From NCBI GenBank assembly GCA_027451985.1, contig DAIDHS010000020.1, positions 1 through 50,072 of the forward strand: a stretch of DNA of 50,072 nt. Direction: 5' to 3'. Shown one piece after another: positions 30,833-40,586 of the stretch (positions are counted from its first letter, which is position 1; the number at the start of each line of letters is the position of its first letter). Position numbers and translations under genes: made by a program. The notes under the pieces were generated by a model. It was not told the origin of the DNA. It searched no databases and was given only the letters and a program-made list of their open reading frames with translations. Source of the DNA: Elusimicrobiota bacterium. Its GTDB lineage: Bacteria > Elusimicrobiota > Elusimicrobia > UBA1565 > UBA9628.

Positions 30833-33568
30833 TCAGAGCGGCTGATACTGCGGCTTCCAGAGCCGCGAGAACTGCAGGGAAATCCCGGTCATGGCGCTGT
30901 AGCCCCACTCGGGCGCGACCTTAAGTCCGAAGACGTAAACGTCGATGAACGGCGCGATGTTGAGCGCGTCCGTGATGGGGATGCTGAGCTTGATGTCGGC
31001 GTCGCTTTGCAGGCGCAGGTCCTGGGGGCTATCCTTGGCGGTGAGGAAGGAGTAGTTGGCGTAGAGCTCTCCCTGCAGCGTCGCCGCGCCCCAGGCATGC
31101 GACAAAATCGCACGCGTGTGAAGGCCGTACTGGGTGTTCTGCGGCACGCGGGCCTGGTTGCGCAGCAGAACGCCTGAGAGTTCCCAGGAGCTCAGCCACG
31201 TGCCGTCGTAGAACTGCACGCCGGGATAGAGGCTATAGGTGTTCTGCTGGGGCAGGCCCGGCGGCGGCGCGAACTGCCCGTCGTACTCGAGGCCAATGGA
31301 CGGACCCCACGATTTGCCCATCCATGCCTGGGACACGCCGCCAGCCTTGCGCGTGAGCGTGGTTAGGGCCGTGATGTCGTTGGCGGAAGTATTGGTCACG
31401 GGTGTCTGCCCAGGCGGCTCTAAGCGGCTTTTGGCGTAGTCCATTTCCAAAGTGTTCGACCATTTATAGACGCTCCGAAAATAATCCGCGTCGACCTTGA
31501 TATCGCCGCCCAGCAGCATCTGGTTGTAGCCCTGGATGCGGGAGTCGGGAACTTGGGAGAAAGGACCGTTGTTGACCACCTGGGTGTTCTGCAGGTTGAG
31601 GCTCACGTCGCGAAAGTTGACCAGCCAGAGTCCGGCTTTGGACGTCGAGCGGCCCTCGGCCCACGCGCGGTAGAGCGCGGGCGCCCCGCCCGCGCGGGCC
31701 CGGAGAGCCGCGAGTACAAGGGCGTCCAGGTTCTCCGGCAGCGGCGTGCTTTTGCGGTTTTGCAGCCCGAGCGCGTCGGCCAAAGTCACCGGGATGGCCA
31801 CGCGGTAGGTCTCGTCTTCGGAGATGCTCCGCCCCTGGATGCCGCCGGTCTTGTCCAGGCCTCCGGCGGTGAACTGTAGGGCGTCGTTCGCGGGTAAGTG
31901 CTCCGCGTCGCGCGCTGCTTGGCGCTTGATGCGGGCCAGAAGCGGCAGGATGTCGGAGCCCTTGAGGTAGAGGATTTCCATGGCGGAGTTGGTGCGCAGC
32001 CAGGCCCGCACCACGCTTTCCGGGATGGGCGCGCTGGCTTCGACCCGCACGGTCAGCGGCCAAATCCAAAGCAGGGAAAGCTCCGAGTGCGTCCTGGCCG
32101 CGGACAAGGACGCGGCCAGGGTCCAGAACTCGCGGTCGCTCAGATACATAGAGGGGCGATTGGGAAAGATGGATCCCTCGGGTGGAATCAGCGCGGCTTG
32201 CGTGGAGAAGCCGATGCCGTAGTTTTCCGGGTCGAACTCGGGGTAACCAGGATCGGAGGGAACCGACGCGTCCAAAATTCGGTGGCGCACGCGCACGGTC
32301 CAGTCGGAGAGGCCGCGGCGGACGGCGAGATCGGCGTCGATGAAGTCGACCGAGGTCTCGTAGGAGTCGACGACTCCCAGGGGAGGGTCGAAGGGTCTGC
32401 GGCCGTTCTGCGAGAAAACGGATTCCGGCGGAGGCTCGGCATGGTCCGGGGTGGAACGGTCGCGCGCTAGGATGAGATCGACCCCCGCGGCCTCGTCGGC
32501 CAAAGCCTCCGTGCCGCCGTCCATCTCGGTCAGGAGCACGACCGCGTCGCCGTCTTTGCGCCATTGCGGAACGCGGGCGTAGAGCGCCGCGATGGGGTCC
32601 GTGATTTTCATGTTGGAAAGGCCGTTTTCCTTCAGGTATCTTTCGGTCGCGGGGGGGGTCACCGCCGCCAGCACCACACGCAGGCTTCCAGCGTCGACCA
32701 CCGCATGATCCGGAAACACGGTGGTTTTAGGCGCCGAGGAATAGACGATGTTGGCGGAAATAAACTCAATGCCGCGGGGATGCTTCGCGCGGTAGCGCAT
32801 AAGCGCGCCCCAATCGCGCAGCTCCGCGTAGCCCACGCCCGAGTAGCGCAGCCCCATGTGAGCCAAGTCCTCGGCCAGCGCTGCTCCGTGCGCCTCGGAG
32901 AGCACGCCGCCGAACACCTCGCCGCGTGCCACGCCGATGAAAGGTCCATTTTTCGCCGCCTCGGCCAGCACGCTCGCTTGGCGCCCCAGGCCTCCGAAGC
33001 TCTTGCCTACTACGAGGACGCGCACTTTTCGGCCCCGCCAGGACAAATCGTAAATCGAGGCGGCGGTCTGGTGCCAGATGGTGCTCACTGACTTGCCCGG
33101 GTTGACGAAAGCCGAGAGCACAATGCCGCCGGGCGCGGGAGATTGGAAAAGAGAGGCGGGGGAGGTGGTGAAGCTCACGCTCCAGGGCCGGCCGTAAGTC
33201 TGGGGATTTTCGGCCGCGGCGGCCAAGGAAGCGATGAGATCCGGCTCGGGAGGATAAACGAAGGCCAGTCCCGCACCGGTCCGCAGGACCGAGGCGGCGA
33301 CACTTCCGGAGGAGGCGTCCGCGCTGCTTTCCGGGACTCGGAAGCGGTAGTCGCCCCCGCTGTAGTAGCACGGGAGGATATGCACGTTCTTGATGACGAG
33401 CTCGGCCGCATCTTTCTTGGACAGCGCTTCGATGGGTTGGGCCAGGAAAAAGGAAAAGCGCGGCGGGTTGTCTTCGATGATGGCCAAGCGGAAATGGCCG
33501 GTCCGCGTTTGGGCTCGGGCCAAACCCGGCAGGCTGAGAAACAGCGCGGCGAGCGCGCGGGCGATCAC
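30833..33568 (-). CDS. Degenerate 5'-nucleotidase-like protein fused to a predicted outer-membrane barrel
   Basis: The 911-residue product has a signal peptide (residues 1-20) and an unrecognised domain to about residue 180. A metallophosphoesterase fold follows, aligned by eye with UshA-type nucleotidases: GKSFGGL (188-194), ARGEVF (214-219), GYAELRDWG (246-254, where the family has GNHEFDxG), FISANIV (269-275), LTEMDG (346-351) and [10 protein letters not shown] (363-372). All metal-binding His and Asn positions look changed. Residues 505-600 match a 5'-nucleotidase C-terminal domain ([27 protein letters not shown]). Residues 645-911 have alternating aromatic strands as in outer-membrane barrels. 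Catalysis is doubtful; a binding or structural role is my inference. It overlaps clpB by 4 bases. Confidence 0.75.
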
Positions 33569-36126
33569 GCGGCCGTGGCTTTGCCGCGCCCGCGGCCGGA
33601 GTTCGAAGCGATTGGGCTTAAAGTCAGCGCTCCGTCCTCCGTCCCGACCTTGACCGCCTCGCCGTCGCGGATTTCACCGGAAAGGATCAGCCGCGAAAGC
33701 GGATCGACAAGGTATTTCTGCACCGCGCGCTTTAATGGTCTGGCGCCGTAGGCCGGATCGTAGCCTTTTTCTGCTAAAAACGCCTTAGCCGCGGCGTCGG
33801 CTTCCAGGACGATGCGCCGCTCCGCCAATCGCTTTTGCACCAAGGCGATCTGGATGTCGACGATGCGTTCTAAGTGCTTGGGATCCAGGGCGTGGAAAGC
33901 GAGAATCTCATCAATGCGGTTCAAGAATTCGGGACGGAAATGGGTTTTGAGCTGCGAGGGTTCCAGATTCGATGTCATTAATAGGAGCGAGTTCTTGAAG
34001 TCGACAAGCCGCCCCTGGCCGTCGGTCAGGCGCCCGTCCTCCATGATCTGCAGAAGCGCGTTGAACACGTCCGGGTGCGCCTTCTCGATTTCATCCAAAA
34101 GCACCACGCAATAAGGCTTGCGCCGCACGGCTTCGGTGAGCTGTCCGCCCTCCTCGTAGCCGACGTAGCCCGGCGGCGCGCCGATGAGGCGGGAGACCGA
34201 ATGCTTCTCCATATACTCGCTCATGTCCAGGCGCACCATGTTTTTTTCCGAGTCGAAAAGTGATTCCGCCAGCGCCCGCGCGAGCTCGGTCTTGCCCACG
34301 CCCGTCGGGCCGATGAGTAAGAACACGCCCAGCGGACGGTTGGGATCGGAAAGTCCGCTGCGCGCGCGGCGCACGGCCTGGGCCACCGCGGCCACGGCTC
34401 CATCCTGGCCGATAACGCGCCTGTGGAGCTCGTCCTCCAGGCGCAGAAGCTTTTCCGCCTGGCCTTCCAAAAGCTTCTCGACCGGAATGCCGGTCCAGCG
34501 CGCCACGGCCTGGGCCACGTCCTCCTCGTCGACTTCCTCCTTTAAAAGCTTGGTCTTGGATTGAAGCTGGGCGAGCTCCTTCTGCGCGGCCTCGATTTTC
34601 TTGGCCGCGTCCGGCACGCGGCCGTAGCGGATTTCCGCGGCGCGATTCAAGTCTCCGGCGCGCTCGGCCTTGGCTTCGTCCGCGCGCAGCGTCTCCATTT
34701 CGGACTTGAGGCGCCGCAGGGCCGAGATGCAGGATTTCTCCTTGTCCCACTGGGCTCGCAGATCCTTGCGCCGGGCGTTTAGGCCCGAGAGCTCCTTGTC
34801 CAGCGCGGCCAAGCGTTCGCGGCTGGCCGCGTCCTTTTCGCGCGAGAGGGCGGTCTTCTCGATTTCGAGCTGCCGGATGCGGCGCTCGGCGACGTCAAGC
34901 TCCTGCGGCACGGAGTCCATCTCCATGCGCAGGCGGCTCGACGCTTCGTCGATGAGATCCACGGCCTTGTCCGGCAAAAAGCGGTCCGAGATGTAGCGGT
35001 TGGAGAGGGTCGCGGCCGCGACCAGCGCGGCGTCGCGGATCTGCACGCCGTGGTGGAGTTCGTAGCGCTCCTTCAATCCCCGCAAAATCGCGATGGTGTC
35101 CTCGACCGAGGGCTCGCCCACCATCACCGGGGCGAAGCGGCGCTCCAGGGCGGCGTCCTTCTCGATGTATTTTTTGTACTCGTCCAAAGTCGTCGCGCCC
35201 ACGCAGCGCAGCTCTCCGCGGGCCAGCATGGGTTTGAGCATGTTGGCCGCGTCCATGCCGCCCTCGGCCGCGCCCGCGCCGACTAAAGTATGGAGCTCGT
35301 CGATAAAGAGCACGATGCGCCCTTCCTGGGCGGCGACTTCCTTCAAAACGGCTTTGAGTCGCTCCTCGAACTCTCCGCGGAACTTGGCCCCGGCCACGAG
35401 CGCCCCCAAATCGAGCGCCACGATGCGCTTGTCCTTGACGCCCTCGGGCACGTCGCCCTCCGCGATGCGCAAGGCCAGGCCCTCCACGATGGCGGTTTTG
35501 CCCACGCCCGGCTCGCCGATTAAGACCGGGTTATTCTTGGTGCGGCGCGAAAGGACCTGGACCACGCGGCGGATTTCCGCGTCGCGGCCGATGACGGGGT
35601 CGAGCTTTCCCCGCTTGGCCGCGGCCGTCAGATCGCGGCCGTACTTCTCCAGCGACTGGAACGTGCCCTCCGGATCCCGGCTGGTCACGCGTTGGGCGCC
35701 GCGCACCGCGACCAAGGCCGAGAGGATCTTGTGCTGGTCCAGGCCCGAGGCCTTTAAAATCTTGGCGGCGCCGCCGCCTTCGTCTAGGAGCCCCAGCAGC
35801 AAGTGCTCAACGGAGACGAACTCGTCCTTCATCGACTCCATCCGGCTCTCCGCGAAGTTAAAGGCGCGGGTGAGCCCCGAAGCGGCGTAAATCTGCCCTC
35901 CCGAGACCTTGGGCTTTTTCTCCAGATCTTTCCTGATGACGGCAGACACCAGCTGCGTGTCGGTTCCGGCCTTGCGCAGGATTTCGGGCACGACGCCGTC
36001 TTTCTGGCGCACCAGGGCCAGGAGCAGGTGCTCGGGCGAAAGCTCCTGGTGGCCTTCCCGTTCGGCCAGCGCGCGCGCGTCTTCGAGGGCTTCCTGCGAT
36101 TTGGCGGTCCAGCGTTCCAGGTTCAT
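33565..36126 (-). CDS. clpB: ClpB disaggregase
   Basis: ClpB is the cytoplasmic hexamer that resolves protein aggregates with DnaK. The 853-residue product has an N-terminal Clp repeat ([31 protein letters not shown]), AAA1 with Walker A GEPGVGKT and [12 protein letters not shown], a coiled-coil middle domain (about residues 395-520), and AAA2 with GPTGVGKT and [14 protein letters not shown]. The C-terminal [18 protein letters not shown] is conserved, with an Arg/Gly-rich tail (GRGRGKA). The middle domain and length distinguish it from ClpC and ClpA. It follows the Prc gene by 23 bases and overlaps the next gene by ATGA. Confidence 0.96.
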
Positions 36127-36149: not shown

Positions 36150-38531
36150 CTATCGGGTCTTCGTGCCCGCGAGGTTAGCGGAGACGCCCAGGCTCTTGGC
36201 TGAGGGCTTGCCGATCATGTCCGCCAGCACGTGCGCGGCTTCCTCAAGGACGAAGTCGGTCGGAGGGGGCGCGTGCGCGTAGCTTTTAGCGGAGGCGGAG
36301 GACGAGGAGACGGAGAACGCCGCGGCCTTGGAAGCCGAACTCGGCAAGGGCGCGGAAACGGACGCCGCGGGCTCTGGGGCCGGAGAAGCGGCGCTCTTGT
36401 CCGCCGCGCCCGCGGCCGTCGAGGTCGAGACCAGCGGGTTGATGCCCGCGATGACGTCCTCAAGCGTGACGTTCGTGATGGTGAAAGGGACCGGCGGTCG
36501 GGAGGCGCGCTCCTTCTTGCGCGCTTCTTCCCGGGCCTCTGCGGCCTTCTGCTCATCCAGGCGGACCGCGTAGTTGAGGGACACGCTCTTGTCCTGCTTG
36601 TGCTTCATGTAGAGCGCGATGTCCTGGCGCACGTAGGCGAAGTCGGTCGAGACCGCGACGCGCTCTTGGGAGGCTTTGCGCAGCGCGTCTATTTCTTTCG
36701 CGTCGACGTCGTTCTTGGGTTCGTAGACGGCAGGCGCGATGTGATCGTAAGGGAGCGCGTTGGGAAGCGAGGACTCGGTCATGTCCAGCTCGTCGTCCAA
36801 GGACGGTAGCTGGATGTCGGGCGTCACGCCGCGATTCTGAGTCGATCCGCCGGAGACGCGGTAGAATTTTTGGATGGTGATCTTGAGCGCGCCGGGGTTG
36901 TCCTTGCGCATGGACCAGGGCAGATAGTCCGCCAGATCGACCACGGACTGGACCGTGCCTTTGCCGAAGGTGCTCTTCTCCCCGACCACGACCGCGCGGC
37001 GGTAGTCCTGCAGGGCCGCGGTCACGATTTCGGAGGCCGAGGCGGAGGCGCGCGTGGTCAAGACCACCATGGGGCCCGTGTATTCGGGCTGGGACTCGGG
37101 CGCGCGCAGGACTTCGACGCGGCCCTGGGAATCTCTTACTTGAACGACCGGGCCCGGGCCGTCGAAGAGTCCGGCCATGGTGACGGCCTCGGCCAGCGAT
37201 CCGCCGCCGTCGTTGCGCAAGTCCAGAATGAGCCCGGCGATGTTTTGCTTCTCGAGATAGGCGACCAGGCGGCTGACGTCCCTGGTGGCGCTGGTGCGCC
37301 CGTCAGGGCGCATGTCGGCGTAAAAAGAGGGAAGATAGACCACGCCCAGACGCTCGGTTTTGCCGTTCTCGAGCGGCCAGGTGATGACCTGAGCGCGGGC
37401 CTCTTGGTCCTTGAGCTTGATGACTTCGCGGATGATGTTCACGACTACGCGCGTCGCCGGATCAATGGCGTCGGCCGGGATGAGGCGCAGGCGCACCAAG
37501 GTGCCCTTTTCGCCGCGGATCATGTTCACGACGTCGTCCAGGCGCATGCCGACGACGTCCACGAAAGGGCCCTCGCCCTGGGCCACGCCCACGATGCGGT
37601 CGTTGGGATGGATTTGCTTGGATTTGTCCGCCGGGCCGCCCGGAACCAGGGAGACGATTTTAGCGTAGCCTCCATCGGAACTTAAGACCGCGCCGATGCC
37701 CACCAGGGATAGGCGCATGCTGATGTCGAAATTCGCTTCGGTCGAGGCCGCCATGTAGTCGCTATGTGGATCGTAGGTGCCGGTCAAAGCCGTCAGGTAG
37801 GCCTGCAGGACGTCGCTGGAGGCGAACTCCTTGTAGTAGGTCAGCAGGCGCTCGTAGCGCCGAGCCACGTCTTTGATCTGGTCCTCGGGCTTGACCTTGT
37901 CGAGCATCTCCTCGAGCACGTCATCCTTGAGGCGCTTCCTCCAAAGTTTCCTGGCGTCGCGCTCATCGGCGGGCCAGGGCAGTTTCTCCCGGTCCAGAAC
38001 CACGCTCTCGTTTTTCTTGAAGTCGAAGATGCTTTCGGGCGAGACCGCGGCCGAAGCGGAAGAAGCCAGGACCCGGTTCATGGCGGACAAGGCGGTGGTT
38101 GAGGATTTCCCCCCCGCCATTTTCCCGGCCGGGGCGGCATGAAGGGTTCGCCGCACGAATCGCACGCGCTCGCGCACACGCTCCATGAAGCGGTTGAAGA
38201 TGAAGTAGGCGGGTCCGATGTCTCCCGCGCGGACCATCTGGGCCATGTCATCGCCGAAGCGCGCCTGGAACTCGGCGACGTCCGAGCGCAGGAAGAACAT
38301 CTTGTCGGGATCGAAATTCTGCAGGTAGAGCTTAAGCATGTCCCGCGATGTAGCGGCGTCCAGGGGCTTGTGCTCGTAATGGTCCTGCTCCAGGATGCGG
38401 GCCACGATTTGGCCGATGACGGGGCCGTCCTGGCTCGGCTCCAGGGGCTTCTTGGGCGCCGTCTTGGCGGAGGCCAATGAGGGAAAAAGCAGGACTGCGC
38501 AGAAGAGGAGGAGCGAAAAGGGCTTTTTCAA
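36150..38531 (-). CDS. prc: Tail-specific (C-terminal processing) protease, Prc/Tsp type
   Basis: Prc is a periplasmic S41 serine protease that degrades proteins by their C-termini. Counting from the TTG at 38531, the 793-residue product starts with a signal peptide ([16 protein letters not shown]). It has a helical N-terminal domain with [10 protein letters not shown], a PDZ domain (about 270-360) with [29 protein letters not shown], and the Ser/Lys dyad at about 498 and 524 ([17 protein letters not shown]). A Ser/Ala-rich tail closes it. A GTG at 38546 is an equally possible start; it would overlap the upstream gene. No clear Shine-Dalgarno settles this. Confidence 0.88.
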
Positions 38532-38535
38532 CGCG

Positions 38536-39000
38536 CTATTGGGCACGTCCCGCGAGAATTTTACGCATTTCCTTAAGGAACTCGATCGTCTTGGGCAAAT
38601 TACCATACGGAATGCGCACCCCCTTCTTCGACCAACCTTTGTACGACTGATCCTCGACCCACTCGCGCAAATCCACGCCGGTGGCGTCCTTGAATATGGT
38701 CACGCGAACGACGAGCTCGATGCCCATGCGCCGAGGGATGCGCGCCAACTCTTTCTCGGCCAGAGCCTGGGGCTCGGCGGGCAAAGACGACAAGGCCTGG
38801 ATGACGCCCTCCAAGGCCGCGGCGTTGAGCGTGATGCCGGCCTTCGTCGGCCCCGAGTAGTGATCCCCTTTGATGAAGGAGCGGATGGAGCCGTAGCGGT
38901 GGCCGCGGTACTCGTCCACGTAGAAGCGGATTTGCGTGACGTCCGAGACGGCGATGGAGCCGATGTCCTTGAGGGGCTTGAATTCCTGGCTTTGGGGCAT
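38536..39000 (-). CDS. Protein with two tandem PC4-like single-stranded-DNA-binding domains
   Basis: The 154-residue product has two copies of a pattern like transcription coactivator p15/PC4. The first (about residues 12-70) contains GSIRSFIKGDHYSGPTKAGITLN and the second (about 95-145) VDLREWVEDQSYKGWSKKGVRI. PC4 domains usually form a dimer of single copies that binds single-stranded DNA; here two copies in one chain could form a pseudo-dimer. I infer nucleic-acid binding from pattern only. ATG at 39000 is chosen over an in-frame GTG at 39012. It heads an operon with prc, clpB and the nucleotidase-like gene. Confidence 0.7.
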   Translation of the reverse strand: MPQSQEFKPLKDIGSIAVSDVTQIRFYVDEYRGHRYGSIRSFIKGDHYSGPTKAGITLNAAALEGVIQALSSLPAEPQALAEKELARIPRRMGIELVVRVTIFKDATGVDLREWVEDQSYKGWSKKGVRIPYGNLPKTIEFLKEMRKILAGRAQ

Positions 39001-39074: not shown

Positions 39075-40586
39075 ATGAGCGCCTGGGTGTGGCTGCCCAT
39101 TTTCCTAATTCTCATCAACGGCACCTTTGTCTTAATCGAGTACTCCCTTTTGCGCGTGAGGCCCTCGCGCCTTGAAATTTTGGCCCGGCGGGGCAGCGCC
39201 GCCGCCAAGATCGCCCAAGAGATGCAGGCGCGCTTCGACTACTACCTGGCCGCCATTCAGGTGGGACTCATCTTGACCGCCCTGGCCTTGGGCCGCTTGG
39301 GGGAGCCCATCGTGGCGGCGTGGGTGCAGGAGCATTTCCCCGGGGCCGTCGCGGCATGGCTTGGCCCTCGCTGGGACGCCGCCATCGCCTTCATCTCGGC
39401 TTTGGCCGCGCTCGCTTTCGTGATGTCCGTCTTCGGCGAGCTTTTGCCGCGCGCCGTCGCCTTGCGCCGGGCCGAGGCCGTGGCGCTGTGGGGGGCCTAC
39501 CCGTTGAGGATTTTCGCGGGGGCGTTCCGCCCCGCCGTGTCCCTGATGACGTTCTCTTCGCGCGGGATTCTAAAACTTTTAGGCCTCTCCGGCCCCGCGT
39601 CCTCCGAGACGTCATTGTCTGCGGAAGAGATGCGCGTGCTCATCGGCGAAACCCAGGAGAAGGGCGCCCTGGCCCTGGAGCAGCTTTTTTTGCTGGAAAA
39701 CCTTTTCGATTTCGGCAAAGCCGTGGCCGCGGACGCCATGGTGCCGCGTGAGAAAATCGCCGCCCTCTCCTTGGCCGAGCCTTGGCCCGTCAATCTGGGT
39801 GTCATCCGCGCGCGGCGATTTTCCCGATATCCTATTTACGAAAGCGACTTGGATTCAACCCTGGGTCTGGTTCACGTCAAAGACGTTTTCCTGACGCAGG
39901 ACGGATCGGGCCCGCCGGACTTGCGCCGCCTAAAGCGCGAGCTCATGAGCGTCTCGGAGACCGAGTCTTTGGAGAAGCTGGTCAAAATCCTGCCCGATCG
40001 CGGGGTCCACATGGCGCTGGTGCGCAACGCCCTGGGCCGCGTGGCGGGACTCATCACGCTTGAGGACATCATTGAGGAGCTGGTCGGCGAAGTGCATGAC
40101 GAGTTCGACTTGCCCCAGGCTTGGTCCTTCATGGACGTGGTCTCGCGCAAGTCCGTGGCGGTGCACCTGCAGGCCGCGGACCGCGCCGCGGCGGTGCGCC
40201 GCGTCATGAGCCTTTTGGAAAAAGCGCACCCGGGGATTATTCCCGCGGACGCGCTTTCCGCGGTCTTGGAGCGCGAGGGACGGCTCTCCAGCTGCATCGG
40301 GCGCGGCGTGGCCGTGCCGCACGCGCGCCTGGCTTCCATGGACCGGGGTCTGGTCGCGGTCGGGCGTTTCCACAAGCCCGTCGATTTCGGCGGCGACAAA
40401 GGGCCGGTCCGCCTGGTGTTTCTGGCGCTGACTCCCTCTTCGCACCCGGTCCTTCAGATCCGCATCCTTTCCCGCATCGCGTCCTTGGTCGCCAACGAGA
40501 ACCTGCGCCGCAAGCTGCTCCACGCGCCGTCAGCGGAAAGCCTCTTCGACATCTTGCGCACCGCCGACACCATGCTGGCCGACTAG
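39075..40586 (+). CDS. CNNM-CBS membrane protein fused to a PTS EIIA domain
   Basis: The 503-residue product starts with a CNNM (DUF21) transmembrane domain (about residues 1-170), with VFGELLPRAVALRRAE as in magnesium or cobalt efflux proteins of the CorB/CorC kind. A CBS pair follows (about 220-335) with ADAMVPREKIAAL and VAGLITLEDIIEELVGEVHDEFD. Such proteins normally end in a CorC_HlyC domain. Here residues 350-495 match PTS EIIA of the fructose/nitrogen type, including the phosphorylatable His416 in GVAVPHARL and VFLALTPSSHPVLQIRILSRIASL. It could couple PTS phosphorylation to ion transport; this is inference. Confidence 0.88.
   Translation: MSAWVWLPIFLILINGTFVLIEYSLLRVRPSRLEILARRGSAAAKIAQEMQARFDYYLAAIQVGLILTALALGRLGEPIVAAWVQEHFPGAVAAWLGPRWDAAIAFISALAALAFVMSVFGELLPRAVALRRAEAVALWGAYPLRIFAGAFRPAVSLMTFSSRGILKLLGLSGPASSETSLSAEEMRVLIGETQEKGALALEQLFLLENLFDFGKAVAADAMVPREKIAALSLAEPWPVNLGVIRARRFSRYPIYESDLDSTLGLVHVKDVFLTQDGSGPPDLRRLKRELMSVSETESLEKLVKILPDRGVHMALVRNALGRVAGLITLEDIIEELVGEVHDEFDLPQAWSFMDVVSRKSVAVHLQAADRAAAVRRVMSLLEKAHPGIIPADALSAVLEREGRLSSCIGRGVAVPHARLASMDRGLVAVGRFHKPVDFGGDKGPVRLVFLALTPSSHPVLQIRILSRIASLVANENLRRKLLHAPSAESLFDILRTADTMLAD

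Follow-up and report, generated by a model that had tools for sequence, protein, structure and literature searches.

What is the role of a protein that combines the fold of a 5'-nucleotidase, deprived of its metal motifs, with an outer-membrane barrel? This question is raised by one gene in the 50,072 nucleotides of Elusimicrobiota DNA that we analyzed (hereafter the window). Sequence and AlphaFold2 model together give the layout of the gene: a signal-like N-terminus, a pseudo-5'-nucleotidase and a 12-stranded barrel (Table 1). The putative signal peptide has no lipobox cysteine, and the protein appears to be an exported outer-membrane protein, as judged from its sequence and model.

Table 1. 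Features of the fusion gene and the two genes upstream of it (positions in the window)
Feature	Position	Strand	Details and basis
Whole gene	30833..33568	-	911 aa, GTG start; ORF call
Putative signal peptide, residues 1-20	33509..33568	-	By-eye reading of sequence
Strand beta-1 of nucleotidase fold, residues 21-34, DxH lost	33467..33508	-	Model strand 22-30
Beta-rich insertion, residues 35-188, loop after lost DxH	33005..33466	-	Model strands 57-188
Rest of metallophosphoesterase-like domain, residues 189-425	32294..33004	-	Alignment, model, profile match
5'-nucleotidase C-terminal-like domain, residues 426-640, substrate motifs lost	31649..32293	-	Model, profile, alignment
12-stranded outer-membrane-type beta-barrel, residues 641-911	30836..31648	-	Models, fold matches, amphipathicity
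Clp-family AAA+ ATPase gene, directly upstream	33565..36126	-	Pfam
prc/tsp-type tail-specific protease gene, upstream, co-directional	36150..38606	-	Pfam: TSP_NTD, PDZ, S41, DUF3340

The origin of the N-terminal part was considered first at the level of structure. The whole-protein AlphaFold2 model (m5fe5f58ab7a2; pLDDT 88.5, pTM 0.82) has 5'-nucleotidases as its best Foldseek matches in the PDB (2ush, E 2.4e-18; 2z1a, TM(target) 0.60), and its fold matches fall on the nucleotidase part. It aligns with UshA in the open form 1hp1 (VIA Z 23.8, rmsd 10.6, 416 aligned), with UshA 1ho5 (Z 23.5, rmsd 4.1, 427 aligned) and with SoxB 2wdc (Z 23.6, rmsd 5.0, 418 aligned). PDB structure matches start at model residue 19-24; the UshA match spans residues 19-640, with model residues 19-636 on UshA 27-544, and takes in the whole two-domain fold. 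The comparison of a predicted structure with UshA, proposed in a preliminary description of the locus, finds the nucleotidase fold, and the model also has the barrel. Plain searches with the window protein are nearly blind and a family profile is required to detect the homology: for the sequence alone, the only NCBIfam match is the UshA model at E 0.25, phmmer retrieves nothing from the PDB at E values of 10 or less, and in Pfam only DUF3078 matches, below its cut-off, with no match to PF02872 or PF00149. The profile of 16 close homologues matches intact 5'-nucleotidases with an E of 7.9e-18 (hhalign, the intermediate L029 being excluded), and the Thermus 5'-nucleotidase 2z1a is a PDB profile match (E 2.3e-11); the A4/A3 profile-profile match begins at residue 188. 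PF02872 (5_nucleotid_C) exceeds its gathering threshold in the relatives L029 and L073. Homology of the weak N-terminal part to 5'-nucleotidases is well beyond chance, and with its two-domain fold and significant profile similarity the window protein belongs by descent to the 5'-nucleotidase (UshA) superfamily.

The catalytic equipment of that superfamily is missing. Motif columns were obtained from a joint alignment with nine intact 5'-nucleotidases of the same phylum, in which the window protein has G216 E217 at the GD motif, G246 Y247 A248 E249 at GNHE, L T347 E348 at LTH and A368 R369 D370 R371 S372 at GGHTH. These are the same residues as in the strings GE, GYAE, LTEMDG and ARDRS read earlier from the sequence, and E217, Y247, A248, E348, D370 and S372 stand in place of metal ligands in residues 189-425. 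The first metal motif, DxH, is likewise missing, and an insertion of about 150 residues follows its site. The columns of the catalytic His-Asp dyad contain A248 and R251, those of nucleotide binding W501, P504, T506, T526 and S528. The window protein has neither the binuclear metal site of the active family nor its His-Asp dyad with NxGGIR and PFxN. The C-terminal nucleotidase domain had been said to remain, which holds for its fold (model and profile) and not for its substrate motifs, NxGGIR and PFxN being gone.

To the family as a whole the same loss applies. Five ligands were scored (D71, N103, H204, H231 and H233, in L093 numbering) over 52 aligned Elusimicrobiota fusion rows, where the fragments L022 and L025 reduce the coverage to 50-51. 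D71 is retained in 6/50, N103 in 2/50, H204 in 5/51 and H231 and H233 in 0/51 each, no row having more than two of the five. The catalytic H104 and D107 are both at 0/50, and the nucleotide-binding columns N349, R354 and F373 at 0/51, 0/51 and 2/49. All scored residues are intact in the nine control 5'-nucleotidases (9/9). The eight Gemmatimonadota and Bacteroidota fusions retain none of the five ligands, and one or two scattered ligands are found in 11 of the 60 aligned fusion rows. Left out before counting were L028, L075, L084 and L088 (truncated or split), L067, L070 and L077 (78-97% identical to kept rows) and L117, as well as the barrel-only L030 and L099; among the eight fusions so dropped only L028 has a ligand, H204, and it also has an R in the R354 column. 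The residues at former ligand positions differ from homologue to homologue, which argues against a conserved metal site rebuilt at those positions. An active fused ancestor was considered and rejected, since each of the 60 aligned fusions (52 from Elusimicrobiota and 8 others) has at most two scored ligands; this set does not contain L029, the fusion least like the others, and was collected with dead or half-eroded queries, so that an intact fusion may exist elsewhere.

Matches to the gene were found in 30 of 57 genomes, its own included. The fusion architecture is found mainly in Elusimicrobiota, and also in a few Gemmatimonadota and Bacteroidota; most fetched fusions have a single open frame through both parts and are 17-93% identical to the window protein. 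Between the window protein and its nearest relative, L002, dN/dS is 0.121 overall (insert 0.185, metallophosphoesterase-like part 0.149, C-terminal-like domain 0.103, barrel 0.078). The fusion design is conserved, and purifying selection acts on it. Since many relatives keep a dead enzyme joined to a barrel, this combination probably has a real, non-catalytic job. The barrel is the most conserved part, with a mean identity of 0.51 versus 0.32-0.38 elsewhere in 14 rows of alignment A4. In a midpoint-rooted barrel tree, the six barrel-only relatives used form a single clade (98/98) beside two fusions and inside the fusion tree, a nesting which suggests that they arose by loss of the dead domain. 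L027, L029 and L089 are long branches of this tree, and L029, a partly eroded fusion without the insert, groups with the Gemmatimonadota/Bacteroidota clade in a placement that is unsure. L029 and the Gemmatimonadota/Bacteroidota members have YTGxxxG as the pattern of beta-1. When 247 genomes of Bacteroidota, the phylum to which G341 belongs, were searched with a barrel profile, G341 alone matched, so that at E 0.001 this profile misses ordinary DUF3078 barrels of Bacteroidota.

About 265 barrel-like residues had been announced after the nucleotidase part, and a barrel is predicted there. The AlphaFold2 model has 12 long predicted strands between residues 647 and 904. Modelled alone (m95c650d49d4d, pLDDT 88.9), the region matches PcoB (Z 16.0), Tsx (15.3) and OMPLA (14.1), then NanC (13.1) and KdgM (11.6), and then NalP (10.9), EstA (10.3) and AaaA (10.3). 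None of 2000 shuffled sequences attained the amphipathicity of the strands, on a hydropathy scale altered to count Trp and Tyr as membrane-facing. A closed, even-stranded, amphipathic barrel is thus predicted at the end of the chain. It is probably a relative of DUF3078 (PF11276), which matches the window protein with an E of 0.0031 and 18.3 bits, below the 25-bit gathering threshold, and the relative L073 above threshold with 32.1 bits. The strand number is even and the odd-numbered connections are mostly longer than the even-numbered ones, although one even-numbered turn of 12 residues exceeds five of the six odd-numbered connections; this would place both ends of the barrel on the periplasmic side. 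The location had been given as surface or periplasmic: strand number and connection lengths favor the second, and the pseudo-nucleotidase domain is probably periplasmic, the surface being less likely.

The reading that we consider probable, with some reserve, is that of an outer-membrane protein whose nucleotidase-fold module is non-catalytic, probably lies in the periplasm and would serve as a scaffold or adaptor. The protein would be exported by Sec and its barrel inserted by BAM, and the pseudo-nucleotidase would hang below the barrel in the periplasm. It would have no phosphohydrolase activity and, tied to the outer membrane, might play a structural part or mediate contacts between proteins; perhaps the protein is a barrel at its core, with the dead domain as an accessory that is tuned in each lineage and that some relatives have discarded. 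We speak of a scaffold because catalytic residues are absent and no conserved pocket is evident, which is negative evidence; the fusions may have a weak or non-metal activity. The preliminary description spoke of a binding protein, a term that so far finds no support: there is no evident ligand site, the C-terminal nucleotide-binding residues are lost, and no His or Cys is invariant among 16 close homologues.

A binding role is nevertheless part of another explanation, which we regard as rather unlikely. The dead domain would still bind a nucleotide, a nucleoside, a sugar phosphate or some other small molecule, in its former cleft or in the space between its lobes, and would feed or gate a Tsx-like 12-stranded channel. 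The two-lobe nucleotidase fold is indeed kept whole, and Tsx, a nucleoside channel, is the second-best barrel match, within 1 Z unit of PcoB. Tsx is not special, however, as OMPLA, NanC and KdgM also match; the nucleotide-binding motifs are lost throughout the family, and inspection of the invariant columns by eye reveals no set of polar residues that resembles a pocket.

Another reading starts from the gene neighborhood. The TGA of the Clp gene overlaps the GTG start of the fusion (GTGA). Upstream DNA is available for 17 first-copy loci of f1, the family of the window, and 15 of them have prc upstream and co-directional with the fusion; in some loci that lack Clp, e.g. L105, L106 and L115, only tens of bases separate prc from the fusion. 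The downstream genes of the window, by contrast, recur solely in L100, a locus of the same genus. The protein might then be an outer-membrane adaptor which tethers Prc and presents substrates to it, with the dead nucleotidase as docking module, comparable to NlpI of E. coli and to LbcA, the adaptor of CtpA in Pseudomonas. For C-terminal processing proteases, partners anchored in the outer membrane are established (PMC8764530). We consider this role doubtful. In the other loci with flanking DNA (L116-L121, L123-L134 and all 20 of L153-L172) a tblastn search with Prc detected no prc; several of these loci break off near the fusion gene. The long Prc is absent from the fusion-bearing genomes G202 and G179 (f14) and G034 (f2) and from the barrel-bearing G054 and G120 (f12), which have shorter and weaker S41 matches (best E 4e-24 to 4e-29). 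The adjacency to prc may be synteny inherited within one family. No universal partner gene was seen across the compared loci: outside f1 the neighbors include a thioredoxin-like gene at the f2 locus L124 and TPR-kinase genes near f14 loci, and in L125-L133 no gene besides the fusion and its antisense ORFs has homologues in at least two other loci. Equally doubtful is a broader proposal, in which the fusions would be a family of pseudoenzymes, centered on Elusimicrobiota and with a few outlying members in Gemmatimonadota and Bacteroidota. In it an ectonucleotidase-type fold would have lost its metal site, gained a new domain in place of the first metal loop and been recruited on a barrel as a periplasmic adaptor coupling the outer membrane to envelope quality control, through Prc in the window's family. 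We found no name for this pseudoenzyme family.

An N-terminal passenger followed by a C-terminal 12-stranded barrel of about 265 residues also recalls an autotransporter, in which case the barrel would carry the pseudo-nucleotidase out of the cell, to act on its surface as adhesin or decoy. NalP, EstA and AaaA are among the barrel matches, but PcoB, Tsx and OMPLA score higher (Z 14-16). The model has no long helix directly before strand 1, helix 630-637 ending 10 residues earlier, and the barrel-only relatives have no passenger. We regard the autotransporter as improbable. A new enzyme, with its catalytic site rebuilt from other residues, for instance in the insertion, is still less probable. 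The insertion is absent from L029 and from the aligned intact 5'-nucleotidases, and in Gemmatimonadota and Bacteroidota it contains strongly conserved His, Glu and Arg (QxEHEL, VSH, WRxPG); the window's branch, however, has no invariant His or Cys, so that at least those His are not kept. A two-gene frameshift fusion or decaying pseudogene, suggested by one copy split between frames (G230, L088/L122), was dropped as virtually excluded by the dN/dS of 0.12 and the open frame conserved in most fetched fusions.

The non-catalytic outer-membrane protein that we favor would be common within one class of a phylum that has been little studied. Among the papers listed by full-text searches, none was seen to describe a pseudoenzyme of the UshA/CD73 superfamily on an outer-membrane barrel, in line with the initial remark that no such described architecture was known to its author. 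Intact 5'-nucleotidases of the same phylum, the partly eroded L029 without the insert and the dead fusions with the insert form a graded series, which makes the transition from enzyme fold to structural module directly testable, and the barrel-only descendants allow the role of the dead domain to be isolated.

Each part of the protein resembles known systems. PcoB, Tsx, OMPLA and NanC/KdgM are 12-stranded barrels which share the fold of the window barrel at 7-12% identity; that small barrels are arranged alike does not show that they function alike. DUF3078 matches the same barrel region, joined in the window protein to the pseudo-nucleotidase. SoxB (TIGR04486) is the best NCBIfam match of the relative L133 (E 1.1e-17), and the "UshA-like (seleno)protein" NF041198 that of L029 (E 1.2e-25) and L019 (E 3.4e-16), all far below the curated cut-offs; for SoxB this is 550 bits, the best relative, L029, reaching 71.6 bits, and the window sequence has no NCBIfam match to SoxB up to E 1. 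The window protein, without a metal site, is outside both families by cut-off, and neither of them is known to carry a barrel. With the UshA/5'-nucleotidase superfamily (PF00149 + PF02872; CD73, NadN, YfkN) it shares the whole two-domain fold, from which it differs by the loss of metal ligands, dyad and nucleotide-binding motifs, by the insertion of about 150 residues after beta-1 and by the C-terminal barrel.

The structure of the whole protein was predicted with AlphaFold2 from a wide alignment of fusions (53 rows), giving pLDDT 88.5 and pTM 0.82. In line with the preliminary description, which had proposed a 5'-nucleotidase fold to be compared with UshA, the top PDB matches in Foldseek were 5'-nucleotidases (2ush, E 2.4e-18; 2z1a, TM-score on the target 0.60). 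VIA-align gave similar results for UshA (1hp1, an open-form entry: Z 23.8, rmsd 10.6, 416 aligned; 1ho5: Z 23.5, rmsd 4.1, 427 aligned) and SoxB (2wdc: Z 23.6, rmsd 5.0, 418 aligned), the matches spanning about residues 19-640 of the model. Profile comparisons agree on this identity: 16 close homologues matched nine intact 5'-nucleotidases of the same phylum with E 7.9e-18 over residues 188-625, the wide fusion set, which includes the half-eroded member L029, matched intact 5'-nucleotidases with E 3.4e-29, and PDB 5'-nucleotidases were matched by the close-homologue profile at E 2.3e-11 and weaker.

Active-site motifs were scored by aligning 70 rows together, among them nine intact controls and 52 Elusimicrobiota fusions, two of them fragments (numbering of locus L093). 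Every scored position is kept in 9/9 controls. Among the Elusimicrobiota fusions, the D of GD is kept in 6/50 rows, the N and H of GNHE in 2/50 and 0/50, the dyad D in 0/50, the H of LTH in 5/51 and the two H of GGHTH in 0/51 each, and of the five ligands scored no row has more than two. The loss extends to the substrate motifs of the C-terminal domain (N349 0/51, G352 3/51, R354 0/51, F373 2/49, N375 0/51), and the Gemmatimonadota and Bacteroidota fusions keep none of these positions (0/8 rows). Eight fusions left out of the main count were inspected separately: L028 keeps H204 and has R in the R354 column, and the seven others have no scored ligand as far as their sequence covers. In the window protein the motif columns hold E217, Y247, A248, R251, E348, D370 and S372, in accordance with the altered motif strings (GYAE, GE, LTEMDG, ARDRS) read earlier from the sequence. 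A rival reading, and an unlikely one, is that the fusion is a new enzyme.

The first motif, DxH, is also gone in the window protein, where strand 1 of the fold (residues 22-30 in the model) is separated from the next helix (GGLGR) by an insert of about 150 residues; because of this insert the row-by-row counts cover only the motifs after DxH. Gemmatimonadota and Bacteroidota members have the same first strand (YTGRSLGALG-like), followed by an insert at a similar place. Their insert is very strongly conserved (alignment columns 200-300, L127 insert; QxEHELxxEQA, FKLVSHxxWRxPG) and may hold a site of its own. L029 (L029:1-2319, G052:C43), which lacks the insert, has YTGDTYGVIG as first strand and a half-eroded active site (DTYG, GN, GSHD; Pfam 5_nucleotid_C, E 4.9e-12): it retains H104, D107, N349 and N375 and none of the five scored ligands. 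It may stand between 5'-nucleotidases and the dead family as an intermediate.

The whole-protein model has 12 long strands at residues 647-904. Modelled alone with 24 barrels, this region reached pLDDT 88.9, and its strand amphipathicity was equalled by 0/2000 shuffles. Foldseek listed porins first (E 6e-6 and weaker); the best VIA matches were PcoB (Z 16.0), Tsx (15.3), OMPLA (14.1) and NanC (13.1), and autotransporter domains scored about 10-11. The Tsx match bears on a rival reading in which the dead domain is a receptor serving a Tsx-like channel, and the autotransporter scores on another, an autotransporter-like display of the nucleotidase-fold domain. The odd-numbered connections measure 17, 7, 11, 6, 10 and 5 residues and the even-numbered ones 2, 12, 4, 2 and 4; together with the even strand number, they suggest that both barrel ends, and hence the soluble domain, are periplasmic. 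The protein would be exported, its barrel inserted by BAM and its nucleotidase-fold module placed in the periplasm.

Compared with L002, a 93%-identical neighbour, dN/dS is 0.121 overall, falling along the protein from 0.185 in the insert through 0.149 in the metallophosphoesterase-like part and 0.103 in the C-terminal-like part to 0.078 in the barrel. Purifying selection is therefore clear on the dead domain and strongest on the barrel. Across 14 rows of close homologues, identity to the window protein averages 0.51 in the barrel and 0.32-0.38 in the other parts.

Features of the window around the fusion gene
Feature	Position	Strand	Basis or content
Pseudo-5'-nucleotidase and barrel gene	30833-33568	minus	ORF, 911 residues, GTG start
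Clp-family ATPase gene	33565-36126	minus (co-directional, upstream)	Pfam
prc-type protease	upstream, beyond Clp gene		TSP_NTD, PDZ, S41, DUF3340 (Pfam)
ORF, 188 aa	26927-27490	minus	no Pfam match at thresholds used
ORF, 530 aa	45555-47144	plus	no Pfam match at thresholds used
Single protein, CNNM and CBS domains joined to PTS EIIA type-2 domain	39075-40583	plus	

The DNA shows a GTGA overlap, the start codon of the fusion gene sharing bases with the TGA of the Clp gene. The pairing of CNNM and CBS with PTS EIIA type-2 in one protein is, to our knowledge, unusual. The nearest named relative is an 'Elusimicrobia bacterium' MAG (L100), with 94% identity in the fusion protein. The genome carrying the window (2.4 Mb, 95% complete) has no PF02872 match at E <=0.001, and so shows no intact paralogue of the usual kind.

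The neighbourhood raises a further rival, that the fusion is a Prc adaptor, for which there are precedents in NlpI-Prc and in CtpA, reported to pair with the outer-membrane lipoprotein LbcA (PMC8764530). We compared 25 window-like loci (L100-L124), 22 of them labelled Elusimicrobia or Elusimicrobiota and 19 assigned to the window's family, f1. Leaving out L119 (without upstream DNA) and L123 (which lacks prc and is the additional copy of its genome), prc lies upstream on the same strand in 15/17 f1 loci (L100-L115, L122), the Clp gene intervening in 8 of the 15 and not in 7; the exceptions are L104 and L109, the latter with a Clp gene at the contig start. By tblastn, none of the remaining flanked loci (L116-L121, L123-L134, L153-L172, some of them short) showed a prc. 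Genome-wide, long Prc is absent from G202, G179, G034, G054 and G120, and in G035 and G036 it lies on a different contig. Since among these loci the adjacency was seen in f1 only and several genomes lack long Prc, a link with Prc cannot be the general function; within f1 it is plausible.

Other neighbours were observed. In two loci of family f2 the fusion start touches or is overlapped by a small gene whose product looks exported (L124:7408-7830, product thioredoxin-like; L118:7495-7932, without Pfam match). Near f14 fusions lie homologous proteins of 820-920 aa with a signal-like N-terminus (L159:10026-12482, L161:2186-4747, L162:322-2793, L166:1648-4416); the two scanned, of L159 and L166, combine TPRs with a Ser/Thr kinase domain at the C-terminus.

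The window protein is matched in 30/57 genomes, its own included, the best match being limited to the barrel in three (L025, at a contig end; L029; L030). With L029 as query, 243/340 genomes of the phylum gave matches, a mix, among those listed, of barrel fusions (~900 aa), barrel-only genes (~300 aa) and 5'-nucleotidase-like genes (~500 aa). In a midpoint-rooted tree of barrels, all six barrel-only rows group together (98/98) beside two f12 fusions, nested within fusions; the simplest reading, conditional on this root and on so few rows, is that barrel-only genes arose by loss of the dead domain. In Gemmatimonadota (phylum of G347) long fusion matches occur in 5/249 genomes, two of which, the search centre among them, were known beforehand, one match being split over two contigs, and short matches only in 37 more. 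In Bacteroidota (phylum of G341) the single long match among 296 genomes is the query's own, with short matches only in 25 more; another search, that of the window-like loci, gave two further loci (L132, L133). Close homologues and these outside members align with E 1.6e-42 across 788 columns. Another relative outside the phylum, L134 (G345, Acidobacteriota MAG), is broken into several frames. In G230 alone, a complete chromosome, the fusion gene (L088/L122) is split across two frames, by either sequencing error or recent loss.

The fold, the loss of active-site residues, the barrel prediction and the conservation were established by computation. The dead nucleotidase fold joined to a barrel is confirmed as first observed; its interpretation as a surface or periplasmic binding protein is supported in part. 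On balance we lean towards a module of nucleotidase fold that has no catalytic role, is anchored in the outer membrane and works via protein contacts. Titles and abstract openings, largely of non-subscription literature, yielded no published description of the architecture under DUF3078, dead metallophosphoesterases or nucleotidases with barrels, UshA-like selenoproteins or Elusimicrobiota outer-membrane proteins. The architecture combines two known kinds, a pseudo-5'-nucleotidase and an outer-membrane barrel.
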